Source: Hyunsoonleella pacifica
GTDB taxonomy: Bacteria; Bacteroidota; Bacteroidia; Flavobacteriales; Flavobacteriaceae
Assembly: GCF_004310335.1 (NCBI RefSeq)
Contig: NZ_SIRS01000002.1
Location: 434,001-498,000, forward strand
Length of the DNA stretch: 64,000 bases
Direction: 5' to 3'
In this document: positions 7,232 through 64,000 of the stretch, in pieces
Numbering within the stretch: position 1 is the stretch's first letter
Layout: each line of letters opens with the position of its first letter
Translations under genes and position numbers: made by a program
The notes under the pieces: model-generated
Told to the model about the DNA's origin: nothing
The model's input: the letters and a program-made list of their open reading frames with translations, nothing else
Database searches by the model: none

Positions 7232-8245
7232 TTATTTGGTAATATTATCAATCATTTTTAACTCTTCATCTGTAAAACTCAAATTATCCAAAGCTTTCAC
7301 ATTTTCTTTCAATTGATTGGCTGAACTGGCTCCAATCAAAACTGAAGCTACTTGTTTATGTCTCAATATCCAAGCTATTGCCATTTGAGATAGTTTTTGT
7401 CCTCGACTTTCAGCAATATCATTTAAACTTTTTATTTTTTTAATGTTGCTCTCAACTGTTGTTTTATCTAAATATGTTAAATTTTTAGCAGCTCTGGAAT
7501 CTTTAGGAATACCATTTAAATATCTATCGGTAAGCATGCCCTGGGCTAAAGGAGAGAATGTTATGCATCCTACACCATTGGTTTCAAGAGTCTTTAAAAG
7601 ACCATCTTCAATCCAACGATCAAGCATAGAATATCGTGCCTGATGCAATATAAACGGTGTGTTTGATGCCTTTAAAAGTTCTGCAGCTTTTTGAGTTTCC
7701 TCAGGTTTATAGTTAGAAATAGCAACATACAATGCCTTGCCTTGGCGTACAATATCAGTTAAAGCTCCCATGGTTTCTTCTAACGGTGTTTCAGGATCTG
7801 GTCTGTGATGATAAAAAACATCTACGTACTCTAATCCCATACGCTTTAAACTTTGGTCTAAACTAGCCATTAAATATTTACGCGATCCCCAATTGCCATA
7901 AGGCCCAGGCCACATATCAAAACCTGCTTTTGAAGCGATGAATATCTCATCTCTGTATGCTTTAAAATCTTTCTTAAGAATTGTGCCAAAATTTTCTTCG
8001 GCAGAACCATAAGGAGGTCCGTAATTATTTGCCAAATCAAAATGTGTAATGCCTAAATCGAAAGCACAACGTAATACCTCTCTTGCATTTTGAATGTTAT
8101 CAATAAAACCAAAATTATGCCATAAACCTAAGGAAATAGCAGGTAGTTTTACACCACTATTACCTGTTCTTTTATATGTCATTGTATCATATCGTTCAGA
8201 AGAAGCAATATATTCTATGATGTTTGATTTGTCATTGATTTGCAT
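7232..8245 (-). CDS. Aldo/keto reductase, YghZ/Gpr-like
   Basis: A 337-residue TIM-barrel reductase that uses NADPH. The N-terminus (SSERYDTMTYKR, LPAISLGLWHNFG) closely resembles L-glyceraldehyde-3-phosphate reductase YghZ, which begins with the same ERY segment, so the upstream ATG at 8245 is preferred over the internal Met22. Catalytic tetrad residues visible: the Asp and Tyr of HFDLANNYGPPYGSAE, the Lys of IASKAGF, and the His of VDVFYHHRPD. The coenzyme site is formed by the C-terminal region around VLIGASSANQLKEN. Likely detoxifies aldehydes; the physiological substrate is not shown by sequence. Confidence 0.88.
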   Translation of the reverse strand: MQINDKSNIIEYIASSERYDTMTYKRTGNSGVKLPAISLGLWHNFGFIDNIQNAREVLRCAFDLGITHFDLANNYGPPYGSAEENFGTILKKDFKAYRDEIFIASKAGFDMWPGPYGNWGSRKYLMASLDQSLKRMGLEYVDVFYHHRPDPETPLEETMGALTDIVRQGKALYVAISNYKPEETQKAAELLKASNTPFILHQARYSMLDRWIEDGLLKTLETNGVGCITFSPLAQGMLTDRYLNGIPKDSRAAKNLTYLDKTTVESNIKKIKSLNDIAESRGQKLSQMAIAWILRHKQVASVLIGASSANQLKENVKALDNLSFTDEELKMIDNITK

Positions 8246-10867: not shown

Positions 10868-12421
10868 ATGTCAATTTCGAAAACTGAACTGCTAGAAAGG
10901 AAAACCGGGAAAGAATTATACAGCTATCAAAAAGGCGCTATAGATAAAATTTTTACTGCTTTTGAAGAGTCGCCATCTGATTATCACTTATTATATCAAT
11001 TACCTACAGGAGGAGGGAAGACAGTAATTTTCTCTGAAATTGTTCGTCAATATCTAAACATAAAGAAGAAAAAGGTTTTAGTAATGACGCATCGTATAGA
11101 ATTGTGTAAGCAAACGTCTAATATGCTTACAGAATTTGGTGTTATTAATAAGGTTGTAGATAGTAAGGCAGATTTAAGTGATCAAGCAGATTATAGTTGT
11201 TTTGTTGCTATGGTTGAAACGCTAAACAACCGTTTGAATGATGATAAATTAGATATTTCTGATATTGGTTTAGTAATTATTGATGAGGCGCACTACAATT
11301 CATTTACTAAGCTATTTAAATTCTTTAGTCAATCTTTTATTTTAGGCGTAACAGCAACACCTTTAAGTTCTAGTATGGAACTACCTATGACTGATAATTA
11401 TGATGAACTTATAGTTGGAGAGTCTATAGAATCTTTAATAAATCGAGGATTTTTGGCTCGGGCAGAGATGTTTAGTTACAATGTAGGTCTAACAAGTTTA
11501 GTTGTTGGAGCTAACGGAGATTATACAGTGAAATCTTCTGAAGATTTGTATACCGATGATAACATGCTTACTAAGTTATTACGCGCTTACGAAGAACGAT
11601 CTAAAGGTAAAAAAACACTAATTTTCAATAATGGTATAAATACATCTTTGCATGTTTATGATACGTTTAGAAGAGCAGGTTATCCTGTAGCACATTTAGA
11701 CAATACAAATACAAAGAAAGAGCGGGCCATGATTTTAAAGTGGTTTAAAAATACTCCTAATGCTATTTTAACATCTGTAAGTATTTTAACTACTGGCTTT
11801 GATGAACCTACTGTTGAGAGTATTATTTTAAATAGAGCAACTAAATCGTTAACACTATACTATCAAATGATTGGTCGTGGTTCTCGTGTTTTAGAGAATA
11901 AAGATACATTTCAAGTTATTGATTTAGGAAACAATTTTCACAGATTTGGACCTTGGGGAGATAATTTAGATTGGCAACGTATTTTTAAATCTCCTAATTA
12001 CTATTTAGATGCTTTATTAAGTGATGAAGAATTAGAAAGTAATTTTAGATATGAAATGCCTGATGATTTACGTGAAGAATTTAAAAACTCTGAAGATGTG
12101 CATTTTGATGTTCAGAAAACTTATGTAGATGCAGTAAGAAGTGGAGAATCTACTAAAGTAGTTTTAGAACGCTCTATAGCGCAACATGCTAAAATATGTA
12201 TTGAAAATAGCGAAGATGTTTATGATGCTATTGCTTTAGCAAAAAAATTAGGAGATGATATTGACTTTAGAATAAAGCGTTACACTAAGTGTATTAGTAA
12301 AAGTACACATAATTTTGTGGAATGGCTTCGAGGCGATTACCGTAAAAAATTAAATTCTTATCTAAGAGCAAATTTTGATGAAGTATTCGAAGAAGTTCAT
12401 GGTTATGCGCCTAAAGAATAA
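10868..12421 (+). CDS. DEAD/DEAH-box superfamily 2 helicase
   Basis: A 517-residue SF2 ATPase. Motifs in order: Q-like YQKGAIDKI, Walker A PTGGGKT (about residues 46-52), DEAH box in VIIDEAHYN, motif III GVTATP, motif V SILTTGFDEP and motif VI QMIGRGSR. The C-terminal 120 residues are helical and unlike canonical accessory domains. The frame is open back to a TTG at 10790, but the ATG at 10868 gives a protein that starts just before the conserved region, so it is chosen. The nucleic-acid substrate is unknown. The EamA gene follows 13 bp downstream. Confidence 0.88.
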   Translation: MSISKTELLERKTGKELYSYQKGAIDKIFTAFEESPSDYHLLYQLPTGGGKTVIFSEIVRQYLNIKKKKVLVMTHRIELCKQTSNMLTEFGVINKVVDSKADLSDQADYSCFVAMVETLNNRLNDDKLDISDIGLVIIDEAHYNSFTKLFKFFSQSFILGVTATPLSSSMELPMTDNYDELIVGESIESLINRGFLARAEMFSYNVGLTSLVVGANGDYTVKSSEDLYTDDNMLTKLLRAYEERSKGKKTLIFNNGINTSLHVYDTFRRAGYPVAHLDNTNTKKERAMILKWFKNTPNAILTSVSILTTGFDEPTVESIILNRATKSLTLYYQMIGRGSRVLENKDTFQVIDLGNNFHRFGPWGDNLDWQRIFKSPNYYLDALLSDEELESNFRYEMPDDLREEFKNSEDVHFDVQKTYVDAVRSGESTKVVLERSIAQHAKICIENSEDVYDAIALAKKLGDDIDFRIKRYTKCISKSTHNFVEWLRGDYRKKLNSYLRANFDEVFEEVHGYAPKE

Positions 12422-56324: not shown

Positions 56325-57764
56325 ATGAAATTATTAAATATATACAATTTGAACTTTTATTTTATACTACTTCTTATAGTGACGTTACAGGCGTGTAATG
56401 ATGATGAAATGCGAACTTACCCACCACCTGAAGTTGCAGATGTGAATGTAGATTTTTTTCTCACTTCTCCTGATGAAGCCAATCTACTAGCTGAGACAAC
56501 TAATGGCCTATTTCCAATGGTCACAAACAACAATTTTACAATTACTGTTGATGAAGGTACAAGCTATCAAGAAATGGATGGTTTTGGATATTCATTAACA
56601 GGAGGTAGTGCTATGCTAATTAATAACATGTCATCTTCAGCTAGAGCAAATCTTTTAGAGGAACTTTTTGGAACAGGAGCAAACAGTATAAGTATTAGTT
56701 ATTTAAGAGTAAGTATTGGTTCTTCTGATTTAGATGCAAACACGTTTAGTTATAACGATTTGCCAAGCGGACAAACTGATGTTAATCTAGATAATTTCTC
56801 TCTAAATCCAGATATGGCAAATCTAATTCCTGTACTAAAAGAAGTTTTAGCCATAAATCCTAATATTAAAATTTTGGCAACACCATGGTCTGCACCAACA
56901 TGGATGAAAACTAATAATAATACAGTAGGAGGAGAGTTGTTACCACAATATTATGATACGTATGCAAATTATTTTGTGAAGTATGTAGAAGGAATGGCTG
57001 CTCAAGGTATCGTTATAGATGCTATTACAGTACAAAACGAACCAGAAAATCCATTTAATAACCCAAGCATGGTAATGAGCGCAGAACAACAAAAAGTCTT
57101 CATCAGAGATCATTTGGGACCATTATTTGCAACAGAAAACATAACAACGAAAATCATTCTTTTTGATCATAATCTTGATAATCCAGATTATCCTATTTCA
57201 ATAATGAATGACGCCTCTGCTAAAACCTATGTAGATGGGTCAGCCTTTCATTTATACGCTGGTCAAATTAGTAACATGTCGCTTGTTCATAATGCACATC
57301 CTGACAAAAACCTGTATTTCACAGAGCAGTGGATACAAGCACCTGGAGATTTCTTTGGAGATATGCGTTGGCATGTTAGAGAACTCATGGTTGGTGCACC
57401 ACGTAATTGGAGTAAAAATGTATTACAATGGAACTTGGCATCAGATCCTAATAGCGATCCACATACCAATGGCGGTTGTGAAGAATGTTTGGGTGCTGTT
57501 ACAATAGATGGTAATTCTATCCAAAGAAACCCAGGGTACTACATTATAGCACATACTTCAAAATTTGTACCGCCCGGTTCTGTAAGAGTAGAATCTAGTG
57601 CCTCTTTTGAGTTTCCTAATGTAGCATACAAAACACCTGAGAATAAGATTGTAGTTCTTGTATTAAACAATTCAGACGTACAAAAATCATTAAACATTAA
57701 CGTACAAACAGAGCCTATAACAGTAACGATACCAGCAGGTTCAGTAGCTACATTTATTTGGTAA
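56325..57764 (+). CDS. GH30 glycoside hydrolase, first
   Basis: A 479-residue lipoprotein (lipobox TLQACND, Cys24) of glycoside hydrolase family 30, a (beta/alpha)8 barrel with a beta side domain. Catalytic residues by position: acid/base Glu239 in VQNEPENP, nucleophile Glu334 in YFTEQW. Other signatures: DGFGYSLTGGSA and TPWSAPTWMK. GH30 in Bacteroidota loci of this layout is usually a beta-1,6-glucanase (subfamily 3), but subfamilies cannot be fixed by eye. Surface location is implied by the lipobox and neighbouring SusD. Confidence 0.9.
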   Translation: MKLLNIYNLNFYFILLLIVTLQACNDDEMRTYPPPEVADVNVDFFLTSPDEANLLAETTNGLFPMVTNNNFTITVDEGTSYQEMDGFGYSLTGGSAMLINNMSSSARANLLEELFGTGANSISISYLRVSIGSSDLDANTFSYNDLPSGQTDVNLDNFSLNPDMANLIPVLKEVLAINPNIKILATPWSAPTWMKTNNNTVGGELLPQYYDTYANYFVKYVEGMAAQGIVIDAITVQNEPENPFNNPSMVMSAEQQKVFIRDHLGPLFATENITTKIILFDHNLDNPDYPISIMNDASAKTYVDGSAFHLYAGQISNMSLVHNAHPDKNLYFTEQWIQAPGDFFGDMRWHVRELMVGAPRNWSKNVLQWNLASDPNSDPHTNGGCEECLGAVTIDGNSIQRNPGYYIIAHTSKFVPPGSVRVESSASFEFPNVAYKTPENKIVVLVLNNSDVQKSLNINVQTEPITVTIPAGSVATFIW

Positions 57765-57776
57765 AAAATAGTAGAA

Positions 57777-59261
57777 ATGAATAAAAGAATCTTATACCTC
57801 CTTTTCATAGTATCCGCTTTTTTTGCGTGTAAGCAAAAAGAAAATTCTAGAGACTTAGCTATGAATTATGAAAGTAAAGTAAAAGAAAGTACAAGCCTAT
57901 TAGGTAAACAAGTGCGTGTTTATACTACGGCAGAACATACCGATAAAAGATTGTCTTTAGACATTCAGAAAACGTTTAAGGAAGCAAAACAACCATTAGA
58001 AACTGAAGTAGCCATTTTTGTTAATCCAGAAAAGCAATTTCAAGAATTTCTAGGAATAGGAGGAGCTATTACAGATGCGGCAGCAGAAGTATTTTCAAAA
58101 TTAAGTGAAGACAAGCAAGAGGAGTTCCTAAACGCCTACTTCTCTGATGAAGGTATCAACTATAACGTTATAAGAACCAGTATCCACAGTAGCGATTTTG
58201 GTTTAGGTAGCCATACTTATATAGAAGAAGGAGATATGGAGCTTAAAACATTTTCCATTGCGAAAGACAAGGAAAAGCGTATACCTATGATTAAACGAGC
58301 CCAAGCTCTTGTAAATGATGATTTGGTGTTTTATGCAAGTCCGTGGAGTCCACCAGCATTTATGAAAACTAATAAACACATGCTTCAGGGCGGTAAGTTG
58401 TTGCCAGAGTACTATCAAGCTTGGGCTAATTATTTTGTAAAGTTTATAGAGGCCTATGAAGCAGAAGGCATTCCAGTTTGGGGCGTAACTATTCAAAATG
58501 AACCTATGGCAACACAACGTTGGGAATCTTGTATATATACAGCCGAAGAAGAACGAGATTTTTTAAAGTACAATTTAGGGCCAACATTTGAAAAAAATGG
58601 TTTAGGAGATAAAAACATTGTAGTGTGGGACCATAATAGAGATTTAATATCACATAGAGCCAATACTATTTTTGAAGACCCAGAAGCTATGAAATACGCT
58701 TGGGGAATAGGGTTTCACTGGTATGAAACTTGGACAGGAGGTGATCCAAAATACGATAATCTTAAAAACATTAAAGCGTCTTTCCCATCTAAAAATTTAT
58801 TGTTCACAGAAGGATGTCAAGAAAAATTTGATGCCACGCAGTATGAGCGTTGGTCTAATGCAGAACGTTATGGTAATTCCATGATTAACGATTTTAATAG
58901 TGGTACTGTTGGTTGGACCGATTGGAATATTTTGTTAAATGAAAATGGTGGTCCAAATCATGTTAAGAACTTCTGTTTTGCGCCTATACATGCAGATACA
59001 AAAACTAACACGCTTATATATACACCTACCTATTACTACATCGGGCACTTTTCAAAGTTTATAAAGCCTAAAGCAAAACGCATCAGTACTACAATGAGTA
59101 GAAGTACGATTGAAAGTACCTCGTTTCAAAATCCAGAAGGAGAAATTGTTACTGTGGTAATGAATAAAACAGACCAACCTATTGATTATAAATTAATAGT
59201 AAGCGATTATCAAATCGATTATAAAATAATGCCCCATGCAATGCAAACAATAATTTATTAA
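57777..59261 (+). CDS. GH30 glycoside hydrolase, second
   Basis: A 494-residue lipoprotein (lipobox AFFACKQ, Cys18). GH30 with FLGIGGAITDAAAEV, YASPWSPPAFMKTN, acid/base Glu242 in IQNEPMATQRWESC and nucleophile Glu345 in LLFTEGCQEK; QRWESC and FHWYETWTG match the glucosylceramidase-like, endo-beta-1,6-glucanase subfamily more clearly than its neighbour does. It differs strongly from the first GH30, so the pair probably cut different linkages or chain lengths (for example endo and exo) of the same polymer. Confidence 0.92.
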   Translation: MNKRILYLLFIVSAFFACKQKENSRDLAMNYESKVKESTSLLGKQVRVYTTAEHTDKRLSLDIQKTFKEAKQPLETEVAIFVNPEKQFQEFLGIGGAITDAAAEVFSKLSEDKQEEFLNAYFSDEGINYNVIRTSIHSSDFGLGSHTYIEEGDMELKTFSIAKDKEKRIPMIKRAQALVNDDLVFYASPWSPPAFMKTNKHMLQGGKLLPEYYQAWANYFVKFIEAYEAEGIPVWGVTIQNEPMATQRWESCIYTAEEERDFLKYNLGPTFEKNGLGDKNIVVWDHNRDLISHRANTIFEDPEAMKYAWGIGFHWYETWTGGDPKYDNLKNIKASFPSKNLLFTEGCQEKFDATQYERWSNAERYGNSMINDFNSGTVGWTDWNILLNENGGPNHVKNFCFAPIHADTKTNTLIYTPTYYYIGHFSKFIKPKAKRISTTMSRSTIESTSFQNPEGEIVTVVMNKTDQPIDYKLIVSDYQIDYKIMPHAMQTIIY

Positions 59262-61371: not shown

Positions 61372-61602
61372 ATGAAGTTAATAGAAAAAGCACTAGAGTT
61401 CGAAAAGAGAAGCATGTCTAGAATGACTACTAGCGATAGGGTGTTAGCATCACGAGAAGCTAAAGCAATAGTATTAGCTATTAATACTATTTATAAGAAA
61501 ACAAAAGATCCTAAACTAATGGATATTATGAAATTGGTAACCATTAAAAAACGCAAAATTGACAAGCGTCTTAAAGGTTTTTCTCTAAGTTCTGCAGTTT
61601 AG
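61372..61602 (+). CDS. Small basic protein of unknown function
   Basis: A 76-residue basic cytoplasmic protein (KALEFEKRSMSRMTTSDRVLASREAKAIVLAINTIYKKT, then KLVTIKKRKIDKRLKGFSL). Mostly helical, no signal. It is co-transcribed with the band-7 gene and ends at a strong terminator. Similar short proteins occur in Flavobacteriaceae, without a role. Confidence 0.65.
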   Translation: MKLIEKALEFEKRSMSRMTTSDRVLASREAKAIVLAINTIYKKTKDPKLMDIMKLVTIKKRKIDKRLKGFSLSSAV

Positions 61603-61639
61603 AGCAGCAGTATTAGTTTAATAGTTTGGTTAGTTAGTT

Positions 61640-61688
61640 AAGCCGAACAATCTCTGTAAAATAAGAGGTTGTTCGGCTTTTGTTTTTA
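61640..61688 (+). terminator. Terminator after the band-7 operon
   Basis: Arms AAGCCGAACAA and TTGTTCGGCTT (11 bp) around a U-rich-tailed loop containing a second short pairing (CTCT/AGAG), followed by T run. It separates the band-7 operon from the lanthipeptide locus. Confidence 0.9.
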
Positions 61689-61942
61689 TACATTATTGTA
61701 TCCATACGTTTTATAACAGTGTAAAAAAAAGGAAAAACCCTACTATAAAAAGGTTAAAAATCCTATTAATTTAAAATTGGTCTCTATTTAATTTAGCTAA
61801 CGAAAAGAATCACTAATAGTAATCATCTTTTATTGATTTTTTTAAATTAACAACTAGTTGTACAGGTAAAATCCGAAAGCCTTTAATAAGTAGGACGTAT
61901 AGCCGAATGCGTTAATGTAGGTACAAATATTTAATTAAAATC

Positions 61943-62266
61943 ATGGATGCAAAGCAATTCAATCAATTATTAAAAGAAGTAAAAGGAGATCCAAAACTTT
62001 TACATTCACTAATCTTCGAAACAGAAAAAGCTATTGATAAGTTAGAGTTTTTAGATAGGAAAACCAAAGCTTCAATACTAGCACTGGATCCCGAGGAGTT
62101 TATTGGGGTAATTACTGGAGACATTGGTACCGCAGCTGGCTGTGATGTAACCTGTACAAGTAGTTGTGGGGTTACATGTAACCAAAGTTGTGGTTACACC
62201 ACGAACTTAGTTAATCCTGGAGATTTTAGAACTCTTGCTTTAAACAACAGAAGACTTTTGTTTTAA
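61943..62266 (+). CDS. Putative lanthipeptide precursor with periodic Cys/Ser/Thr core
   Basis: A 107-residue peptide ahead of a LanKC gene. Residues 1-66 form a helical leader (MDAKQFNQLLKEVKGDPKLL at the start, LDRKTKASILALDPEEFIG near 37-55) that loosely resembles Nif11-type leaders; the canonical class III ILELQ-like box is not evident. Residues 67-83 are the core, with Cys at 67, 71, 75, 79 and 83, exactly four apart, and Thr or Ser immediately before each of the last four. A 24-residue tail without Cys follows (two Thr at 86-87, and basic ending NNRRLLF). Modification by the adjacent LanKC is inferred from proximity and from the Ser/Thr-Cys pattern. Confidence 0.82.
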   Translation: MDAKQFNQLLKEVKGDPKLLHSLIFETEKAIDKLEFLDRKTKASILALDPEEFIGVITGDIGTAAGCDVTCTSSCGVTCNQSCGYTTNLVNPGDFRTLALNNRRLLF

Positions 62267-62278
62267 TCTTTTTAACCT

Positions 62279-62312
62279 AATGCCCAGCCTTAAATAAGGC
62301 TGGGCATTTTTA
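62279..62312 (+). terminator. Attenuating terminator between precursor and LanKC
   Basis: Arms AATGCCCAGCC and GGCTGGGCATT (11 bp) with a short loop and a T tail, 12 bases after the precursor stop and 13 bases before the synthetase start. It would let most transcripts stop after the precursor, giving excess peptide over enzyme, as is common in lanthipeptide operons. Confidence 0.9.
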
Positions 62313-62324
62313 ATTAAAATAATA

Positions 62325-64000
62325 ATGGAAACATATAAAAACATCTTAGAGAAACATCATATAGATTTTGAAGAAAAACAACCATGGCTTATTTGCGGAA
62401 AAACTAACTTAGTTCAAGGGTGGAAATTACATGTTTCTACAACACCAAATAAGATTCATCAATTATTTACTATCATTTGTCCGTATTTAAAACAAAATAA
62501 AATTGCTTTTAAAATCATCGCTAATAAACAGTTGTGTATACAGCTAAACGATGGCGATTTAGGGGTGACACAAATAGGTAAGACTATGACTATTTACCCA
62601 GAAAACGAAACAGTTGCAAAACAAATAATTACTTACATAAAGCAGAGAACCGATTTTAAATTTACAGGTCCAAAGATCTCCACAGACATTAGGCTAGGTA
62701 GCATTCTTTATACTAGGTATGGTGGTTATAACCCTATTATTGAATATGATAGATTTGGGCGTAAAAAATTAATGATTTATGACCCCTATAACAATCTTAT
62801 AGAAGACAACTATACAAGTCATTTAGATTTAAAATATTATAAGTTTCCATTTAATGAATTTAAATATGAGATACCTCAAGAAGAGAGAAGCAAACTTTTA
62901 TTCAATCAATATTTAATATTAGATGTATTAAAGTCCCATCCGAAAGGACAAGTCTTTAGAGGGATTGATATTTCAAATAAAGAAAACATTAAACCTGTAG
63001 TTATAAAACAAGCAGTAGCCAATATATTTTGTGATGAAGATAGTGATAGAGACATCATTAACAGGTTGAATTCCCAATTTCAACTTTCAAAGAAAATAAA
63101 AAATATAAATATTCCTACACCATATGATTTAAAAAAGTATAAAGAAAATCATTATCTCATAACCGAATATATAGATGGTGGTAATTTAGAGCATAAAGTA
63201 TTTGAACTTTTAAGCACTTCAACATTTAAAGCATCTAAACTACAAACTAAAAAACTATTAATAAACTACGCTATTCAATTAATAGAAGAAGTTATAAGAT
63301 TACACGATCAAGGTATAGTGCACAGGGATTTATCAGCAAGTAATATATTAGTTTCAAAAAACGACTTTATATATTTATCAGATTTTGAATTAGCTTACGA
63401 TCTAAATAACTCTTCAGAACATCCGTTTAAAGGAGGTACAGATGGGTTCATGTCTTTAGAGCAAAAAGAAAATATGGAGCCTAAATTTGAAGATGACATT
63501 TATTCTGTTGGTGCAATAATTACTTTAATTTTTACGGGCTTAGACCCTAGGCGTGTACTAAAAGGTACTTTAAGTCAAATTAAAAAGCGGTTGTTACATT
63601 TAGCAGGAGGAGATATTGAAATTGTTCTAGATGATTTATTAAACTGTTTTAAACCGAGCAATGATAGACCATCTCTAGCCTATTTAAAATCAAAGTTTAA
63701 ACAGATTAAGTTTAAGGAAGTATCTAATAAAAAAAGTTCGTTTTCAATTACAAAGCAAGAATTAACAACATCAATAAATAATTGTATCAGTTCCATAGCG
63801 CATACTGTCTATACTTTGGATGATTTATGGTTTTCAGAAACTATAGATAAAAGCAATCACGAACAAAACAACAAAGCTTCAAATAAAACATTTTATGGTT
63901 CTTTAAACAGGGGAATTAGTGGTGTGTTATATGTTATGGCGCATGCTAAAATATCTGGTTTTGATATAACATCAAACTCAAAAATCATTGATAAATCCAT
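62325..64000 (+). CDS. LanKC-type lanthionine synthetase, partial
   Basis: The gene starts at ATG 62325 and runs off the window after 558 codons without a stop. Three parts are visible. Residues about 25-200: the LanKC N-terminal lyase-like domain (QGWKLHVSTTP, AFKIIANKQL, IGKTMTIYP, LYTRYGGYNP). Residues about 205-460: a kinase domain with beta-3 Lys228 (VVIKQA), HRD catalytic loop 333-335 with Asn340 (HRDLSASNILV) and DFE at 353-355 in place of DFG. Residues from about 480: the beginning of the LanC-like cyclase (YGSLNRGISGVLYVM). Zinc ligands that separate class IV from class III lie outside the window. It would dehydrate Ser/Thr by phosphorylation and elimination and form thioether rings. 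Confidence 0.92.
   Translation, partial: METYKNILEKHHIDFEEKQPWLICGKTNLVQGWKLHVSTTPNKIHQLFTIICPYLKQNKIAFKIIANKQLCIQLNDGDLGVTQIGKTMTIYPENETVAKQIITYIKQRTDFKFTGPKISTDIRLGSILYTRYGGYNPIIEYDRFGRKKLMIYDPYNNLIEDNYTSHLDLKYYKFPFNEFKYEIPQEERSKLLFNQYLILDVLKSHPKGQVFRGIDISNKENIKPVVIKQAVANIFCDEDSDRDIINRLNSQFQLSKKIKNINIPTPYDLKKYKENHYLITEYIDGGNLEHKVFELLSTSTFKASKLQTKKLLINYAIQLIEEVIRLHDQGIVHRDLSASNILVSKNDFIYLSDFELAYDLNNSSEHPFKGGTDGFMSLEQKENMEPKFEDDIYSVGAIITLIFTGLDPRRVLKGTLSQIKKRLLHLAGGDIEIVLDDLLNCFKPSNDRPSLAYLKSKFKQIKFKEVSNKKSSFSITKQELTTSINNCISSIAHTVYTLDDLWFSETIDKSNHEQNNKASNKTFYGSLNRGISGVLYVMAHAKISGFDITSNSKIIDKS

Follow-up and report, generated by a model that had tools for sequence, protein, structure and literature searches.

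A probably acquired, class IV-type lanthipeptide gene pair in Hyunsoonleella pacifica with a core peptide nearly identical to that of a proteobacterial plasmid

Pinensins are class I lanthipeptides, whose LanB and LanC enzymes are separate proteins. They were the only lanthipeptides isolated from Bacteroidetes up to the time of a survey in which most LanKC (class III) and LanL (class IV) synthetases are placed in Actinobacteria and Firmicutes (PMC7268733); the same survey may include enzymes of the type described here without comment. A class I lanthipeptide is also mentioned in Flavobacteriaceae (PMC10734526). The two single-chain classes differ in the cyclase: LanL cyclases retain their zinc ligands (PMC2843593), and the loss of these ligands is the mark of class III (PMC10604976). 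The characterized class IV products counted in PMC9576775 comprise two earlier ones, the venezuelins and SflA, and two added from Streptomyces and Chondromyces. Judged by titles and the start of abstracts, none of the matches listed in our literature searches concerned class III or IV lanthipeptides of Bacteroidota or the core peptide described below, and queries with the core strings themselves returned nothing on the subject by the same measure.

The locus reported here lies at the end of a window of 64,000 nucleotides from the Hyunsoonleella pacifica genome (G000:C12:434001-498000) and consists of a precursor gene, lanA, followed on the same strand by a synthetase gene of lanL type. From sequence comparison we regard this pair, with a probability of roughly 0.8, as a lanthipeptide unit of class IV type that was gained by horizontal transfer and whose zinc-dependent enzyme uses the ring-forming mechanism of that class. 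A class IV-type enzyme with a clear partner peptide in Bacteroidota would widen the range of the few characterized class IV products. More surprising is that, across phyla, the core is the same at 20 of 22 residues and the enzymes are only about 32% identical, a pattern that suggests a single product with a single task.

Within the window, the synthetase gene (62325-64000, + strand) is open from its ATG to the last letter and covers 558 codons, comprising the lyase domain, the kinase domain, and the start of the cyclase. A first-pass annotation made from these letters had proposed a three-domain lanthionine synthetase and had named a stop or frameshift just past the window as a threat to that proposal. 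In the downstream sequence the frame runs on without either to codon 876 (G000:C12:496325-498955), so this threat is excluded. Pfam recovers the three domains from the full protein in the order RamC_N (residues 16-163, E 6.7e-28), Pkinase (218-410, E 3.1e-21), and LANC_like (526-863, E 3.4e-39), and the quoted motifs RYGGYNP (from R131), HRDLSASN (from H333), and DFE (353-355) are all in place. By alignment, the kinase residues K228, H333-R334-D335, N340, and D353 are intact, as are the likely acid/base residues D620 and H685 of the cyclase. In the lyase domain, K34, H36, and Y91 are each numbered 17 below Lys51, His53, and Tyr108 of VenL (PMC2843593); at the same offset Arg83, the proposed catalytic base of VenL, would correspond to A66, with K63 nearby, so that by this numbering three of the four VenL lyase residues are matched and Arg83 is not. 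PADLOC defence-kinase models match the kinase part in the best 25 of 33 rows, and one of them extends to residue 594. An AlphaFold model of modest quality for the relative from Neobacillus (6-row alignment, mean pLDDT 78, pTM 0.53) retrieved full-length chains of CuvL (a class IV enzyme), ThurKC, SalKC, and PneKC as its best 18 PDB matches in Foldseek, with CuvL and ThurKC at the top. As the overall rmsd against these full chains is 14.7-16.4 Å, the model backs the domains and not their packing.

The cyclase half lies beyond position 64000 and carries the residues that bear on class. The first-pass annotation had suggested looking there for Cys-Cys-His zinc ligands, and all three are present as C744, C789, and H790 in an alignment with 13 relatives, the naming of these residues resting on conserved motifs in the 14 sequences. 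The triad is kept, together with D620 and H685, in the window enzyme, in three relatives (L010, L011, and L012), in Rhodococcus L008, and in all three LanL references, two of which are annotated as lanL and one, from S. noursei, was grouped as LanL by us. All five LanKC references and the Chitinophagaceae synthetase L015 have lost the three ligands and H685, and four of the five LanKC references retain an Asp equivalent to D620. The family search proposed in the same annotation came out in favor of LanL in rank (386.5 bits with NF038150, class IV, against 249 bits with NF038151, class III) and not in level, as both scores lie below the NCBIfam cut-offs of 650, an annotation threshold and not a mechanistic criterion, and 575; the LanM model gives 113 bits (cut-off 304).

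In a midpoint-rooted tree of the 14 sequences, the window enzyme, L010, L011, L012, and L015 form one clade with support of 100/100, apart from the three LanL and five LanKC references and thus not grouped with actinobacterial LanL. Its other members come from Haematobacter, an alphaproteobacterial MAG, Neobacillus, and a Chitinophagaceae MAG; within it, the pairing of the window enzyme with L015, a long branch, has support of only 91/93. Relatives were sought in genome contigs with two short peptide patterns in one scan, which makes the family count a lower bound. Five of the nine loci from the scan entered the tree; of the others, L016 has an ORF that ends at 517 aa, L017 and L018 have matches confined to the kinase region, and L014 was likewise left out. 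Nine plasmid rows were retrieved from the best 20 of 142 records, and the species shared by H1 and L012 is represented in the tree once. Some sequences have approximate starts: the reading of L010 began one codon ahead of an internal ATG, its ORF opening at 7938, and L008 was read from 5001, stop-free and upstream of its annotated start.

The window enzyme resembles class IV LanL (VenL and others) in combining a lyase, a kinase, and a zinc-type LanC domain in one chain. It differs in its sub-threshold model score, in having HRD in the kinase where all three LanL references have LRD, and in the presumed 66-residue leader of its precursor. Because it belongs to a clade of its own, falls outside the NCBIfam LanL model, and is matched at three of the four VenL lyase residues and not at Arg83, we use "class IV-type" as a statement of mechanism; the best reading is that it belongs to a subfamily of which we found no description.

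The precursor gene lanA (61943-62266, + strand) encodes 107 residues, presumably divided into the leader, a 22-residue core (62141-62206, + strand; CDVTCTSSCGVTCNQSCGYTTN) made of five C-x-x-[ST] units, and a 19-residue tail ending in RRLLF. The claim that a dedicated precursor adjoins the synthetase upstream is borne out, since lanA matches an ORF at the same place in Haematobacter (E 7e-23, with 82% of lanA covered; 51% identity where aligned); no second copy of lanA was found in its own genome at E values up to 10. The Haematobacter locus, on plasmid pOT1-4 of H. massiliensis, has the same order of precursor and synthetase, the latter annotated as "lanthionine synthetase LanC family protein", and none of the papers listed by a search naming the genus concerned it. 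Its precursor, an ORF of 146 aa, has a similar start and differs in carrying two copies of CDVTCTSSCGATCAQSCGYTTN, where the window precursor has one core. Against the first copy, the core codons are identical at 8 positions, synonymous at 12, and non-synonymous at 2; against the second, the numbers are 10, 10, and 2. The core is also better conserved between the two precursors (20/22) than the first leader residues (24/59; Fisher p 4e-5). These comparisons indicate that the conserved core is under purifying selection, and the fact that a remote proteobacterium has nearly the same peptide next to a related synthetase suggests one conserved, ring-shaped product.

A diverged version of the same repeat, CNYTCLDTCDITCDESGCNYTK, precedes the enzyme of the alphaproteobacterial MAG (L011), so that the cores of three lineages consist of five C-x-x-[ST] units. 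Five consecutive units arose in none of 200,000 shuffles of the 22-residue core and in none of 200,000 shuffles of the last 41 residues. In six-frame translations of the window and the collected loci, many of them overlapping (931,930 residues), runs of at least four units were confined to these precursors and L048, which had entered the locus set through the core-pattern search itself and was dropped as antisense to a low-complexity repeat. The other clade members depart from the pattern. Neobacillus sp. Marseille-Q6967, like the MAG, shares the enzyme clade, gene order, and an alignable leader with the window locus, and its core is short and dissimilar with a single C-x-x-T unit; no precursor of lanA type was seen beside the Chitinophagaceae gene. 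The frozen core therefore characterizes the window and Haematobacter, and the five-unit pattern is common to three of the five members of the clade. The last residues of the precursor tails are RRLLF, RRSRFG, and RRFR. A Nif11 or NHLP leader is not claimed: NHLP/Os17 leader models do not match the window and MAG precursors, and their matches to the Neobacillus precursor (E 0.0046 and 0.028) and to that of Haematobacter (0.22) are weak and below the cut-off.

In the pathway that we propose, the 107-aa precursor would be bound through its leader by the 876-aa enzyme, whose kinase domain would phosphorylate Ser and Thr residues of the core and whose N-terminal lyase domain would remove the phosphate to leave dehydroalanine or dehydrobutyrine. 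The zinc-dependent LanC domain would then add the core Cys residues to the dehydrated positions as thioethers, each Cys most likely pairing with the Ser/Thr three positions later, which would give five consecutive four-residue rings. Enzymes with genes elsewhere in the genome would finally remove the leader, the probable cleavage site being the AG-Cys junction. Because the residues are intact and the core is under purifying selection, we infer that the pair works as a lanthipeptide system; we counted against this that class IV clusters in E. coli gave a modified peptide in only two of seven cases (PMC9576775). The repeat is regular enough for a ring prediction that is sharp and can be tested, with two lineages serving as natural replicates. 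Between lanA and lanL lies a terminator-like hairpin with a 13-pair stem and a T-rich tail (62279-62308, + strand; z-score of -5.9 for the fold of 62264-62324), which could lower the enzyme relative to the precursor. The corresponding gap in Haematobacter also holds a stable hairpin (z -4.6). In the MAG the gap is no stabler than shuffles (z 1.4), and neither is the folded stretch in Neobacillus (z 0.0), where a small stem and then a T run follow lanA.

Relative to a genus-mate (G924), the pair lies in a 6.9-kb insert. The gene order in G924 is Band_7, a gene of 76 aa, and a calpain-like gene; the window genome has lanA, lanL, and two genes on the other strand between the 76-aa and calpain-like genes, bounded by a decayed direct repeat (124 of 178 columns identical in blastn, E 3e-19). 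The left copy occupies 61522-61696 (+ strand), and its counterpart on the right lies past the window end, at L002:7631-7784 (G000:C12:502630-502783). The repeat corresponds to the 3' end of the 76-aa gene (61372-61602, + strand) and occurs once at the matching place in G924. This gene follows Band_7 in both genomes and belongs to the host backbone, not to the lanthipeptide unit; its 3' end and terminator form the left border of the insert. Band_7 matches occur in all 12 genomes of the genus and are close (84% or more) in three besides the window genome; among ORFs of at least 100 aa around these three, no lanA or lanL was seen by eye, and in two of the three, other genes follow Band_7.

The synthetase is missing from 11 of the 12 genus genomes and was found in 1 of 199 genomes of the family, and searches with the enzyme or profiles gave 1 of 395 genomes for the order and 3 of 395 for the class, where the remaining hits consist of one fragment at a contig end and one protein lacking the LanC part. 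RamC_N alone occurs in 3 of 395 genomes of the phylum. These samples overlap, include the window genome, and, except perhaps for the genus, are draws from larger groups; on such counts, the expectation that the system is rare among relatives holds. The simplest explanation is that the pair was gained by insertion, with loss from the other relatives as an alternative, and the two-gene unit is probably an acquired one. Viral contigs held no relative of the enzyme or the precursor, their one core-pattern match being the discarded L048, and spread by viruses was dropped as an explanation, a phage tblastn match with E 0.2 being taken as chance.

The label LanKC given in the first-pass annotation is not supported. 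A true class III enzyme, whose cyclase would work without a metal and whose products might contain labionin, would share the order of RamC_N, kinase, and LanC domains, which is common to classes III and IV, as well as the replacement of DFG by DFE or DLE; the LanKC model does match at 249 bits, and ThurKC ranks among the closest solved proteins in both sequence and fold. Since class III is marked by the loss of zinc ligands, all of which are kept here and absent from the five LanKC references, the synthetase is not a LanKC; the 137-bit advantage of the LanL model and a position outside the LanKC clade speak against class III as well, and we consider that assignment extremely improbable. It is also very unlikely that the pair is decaying foreign DNA without function in its present host. 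Its rarity in the genus (1 of 12) and the decay of the flanking repeat would fit such a fate; against it, the frame of 876 codons is intact, the checked catalytic residues are kept except for the counterpart of Arg83, and the core is conserved at the protein level through 12 synonymous codon differences.

For a functional class IV-type pair, the ring pattern and the role of the product are less certain. Thioethers in which Cys precedes Thr are known from cinnamycin. Most known lanthionines instead have Ser or Thr before Cys, and T6-S7-S8-C9 in the core would permit the usual TxxC ring; dehydration and cyclization would then yield overlapping rings from Ser/Thr to later Cys. We think this somewhat improbable in view of the MAG core, whose five Cys and five Ser/Thr, within 22 residues, are exactly the unit positions. 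It has an extra residue between units four and five, which keeps the C-x-x-[ST] spacing and alters the distance to the neighboring unit; this one case favors pairing inside each unit, with Cys before its partner at i+3. As for the role, a constant core with changing enzymes and hosts is a sign of a conserved target, which we propose with moderate confidence. The pair might accordingly act inside the cell or at its surface and not as a secreted antibiotic, its core binding a conserved partner or a metal; antibiotic cores usually vary, and this one is nearly invariant between phyla. The genes beside the pair would fit such a role. The first-pass annotation had pointed to protease and ABC-transporter genes as companions to look for, and this did not hold up: Pfam recognized no exporter or immunity gene among the neighbors, where the venezuelin cluster has the ABC transporter pair venT/venH (PMC2843593). 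Downstream of lanL, on the other strand, are a TPR protein, a second protein with a weak TPR match (best E 0.01, under the cut-off), and a calpain family peptidase (Peptidase_C2, E 5e-19; L002:7840-9087, - strand). The peptidase has a close counterpart in G924, which lacks lanA and lanL, and is thus not cluster-specific; as it is the sole protease nearby, no transporter or protease was recognized as part of the cluster. The relatives are similar. In Haematobacter, the transporters annotated within 10 kb to either side are of the TRAP and ectoine types only; in Neobacillus, the three large neighbors scanned are metabolic enzymes (PPDK_N, BcrAD_BadFG, and Lyase_1) with no exporter among them; and downstream of the L011 enzyme is an ORF without a Pfam match and unlike the second TPR-like protein. 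On the other side, unlinked proteases are known for lanthipeptides (PMC8960859), and the genome encodes two C39 ABC proteins, though these stand beside small peptides of their own with GG-type leaders (by eye). We regard an intracellular or surface role as unlikely, if a serious contender. Taken as a whole, the picture of a cross-phylum family remains tentative and somewhat below even odds: a near-frozen five-unit core and a distinct zinc-dependent clade, a product shaped as a rod of five four-residue thioether rings with Cys before Ser/Thr, a bare two-gene unit moving between Bacteroidota and Pseudomonadota, and a conserved target in place of a variable antibiotic.

Several other loci were observed in passing. 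The synthetase at L015:7929-10622 is a member of the window clade with all zinc ligands lost, possibly a separate zinc loss in Bacteroidota, and is followed at 11210 and 12052 by two similar ORFs of 98 aa that carry two Cys and begin with what, by eye, resembles a secretion signal. A membrane protein beside it resembles, by eye, the neighbor of a 467-aa protein at L005:544-1947 (G441) that has RamC_N and kinase parts and no room for LanC, and a 388-aa ORF at L006:952-2118 (G437) matches RamC_N just above the cut-off (30.7 bits). The two C39-peptidase ABC proteins of the window genome belong to a separate bacteriocin-like locus (L047:3294-11942, G000:C32), which also holds proteins that by eye are secretion-type adaptors. 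Beyond the window, L002:9632-13057 (G000:C12:504631-508056) contains a second RiPP-like group, of which nothing was seen beyond the calpain-like gene of G924, with a QueG-like Fe-S protein, a HemW-like radical SAM protein, an ATP-grasp-like protein, and an 87-aa peptide of NHLP/Os17 type (E 8e-5, below the cut-off). In the vicinity, a protein with a Por_Secre_tail (type IX secretion sorting) domain was found, and one neighboring gene has its best plasmid match in Persicobacter, a genus of Bacteroidota; both agree with a host from that phylum. Within the window, two adjacent glycosyl hydrolase family 30 proteins are encoded at 56325-59261 (Pfam 1.2e-42 and 3.7e-80).
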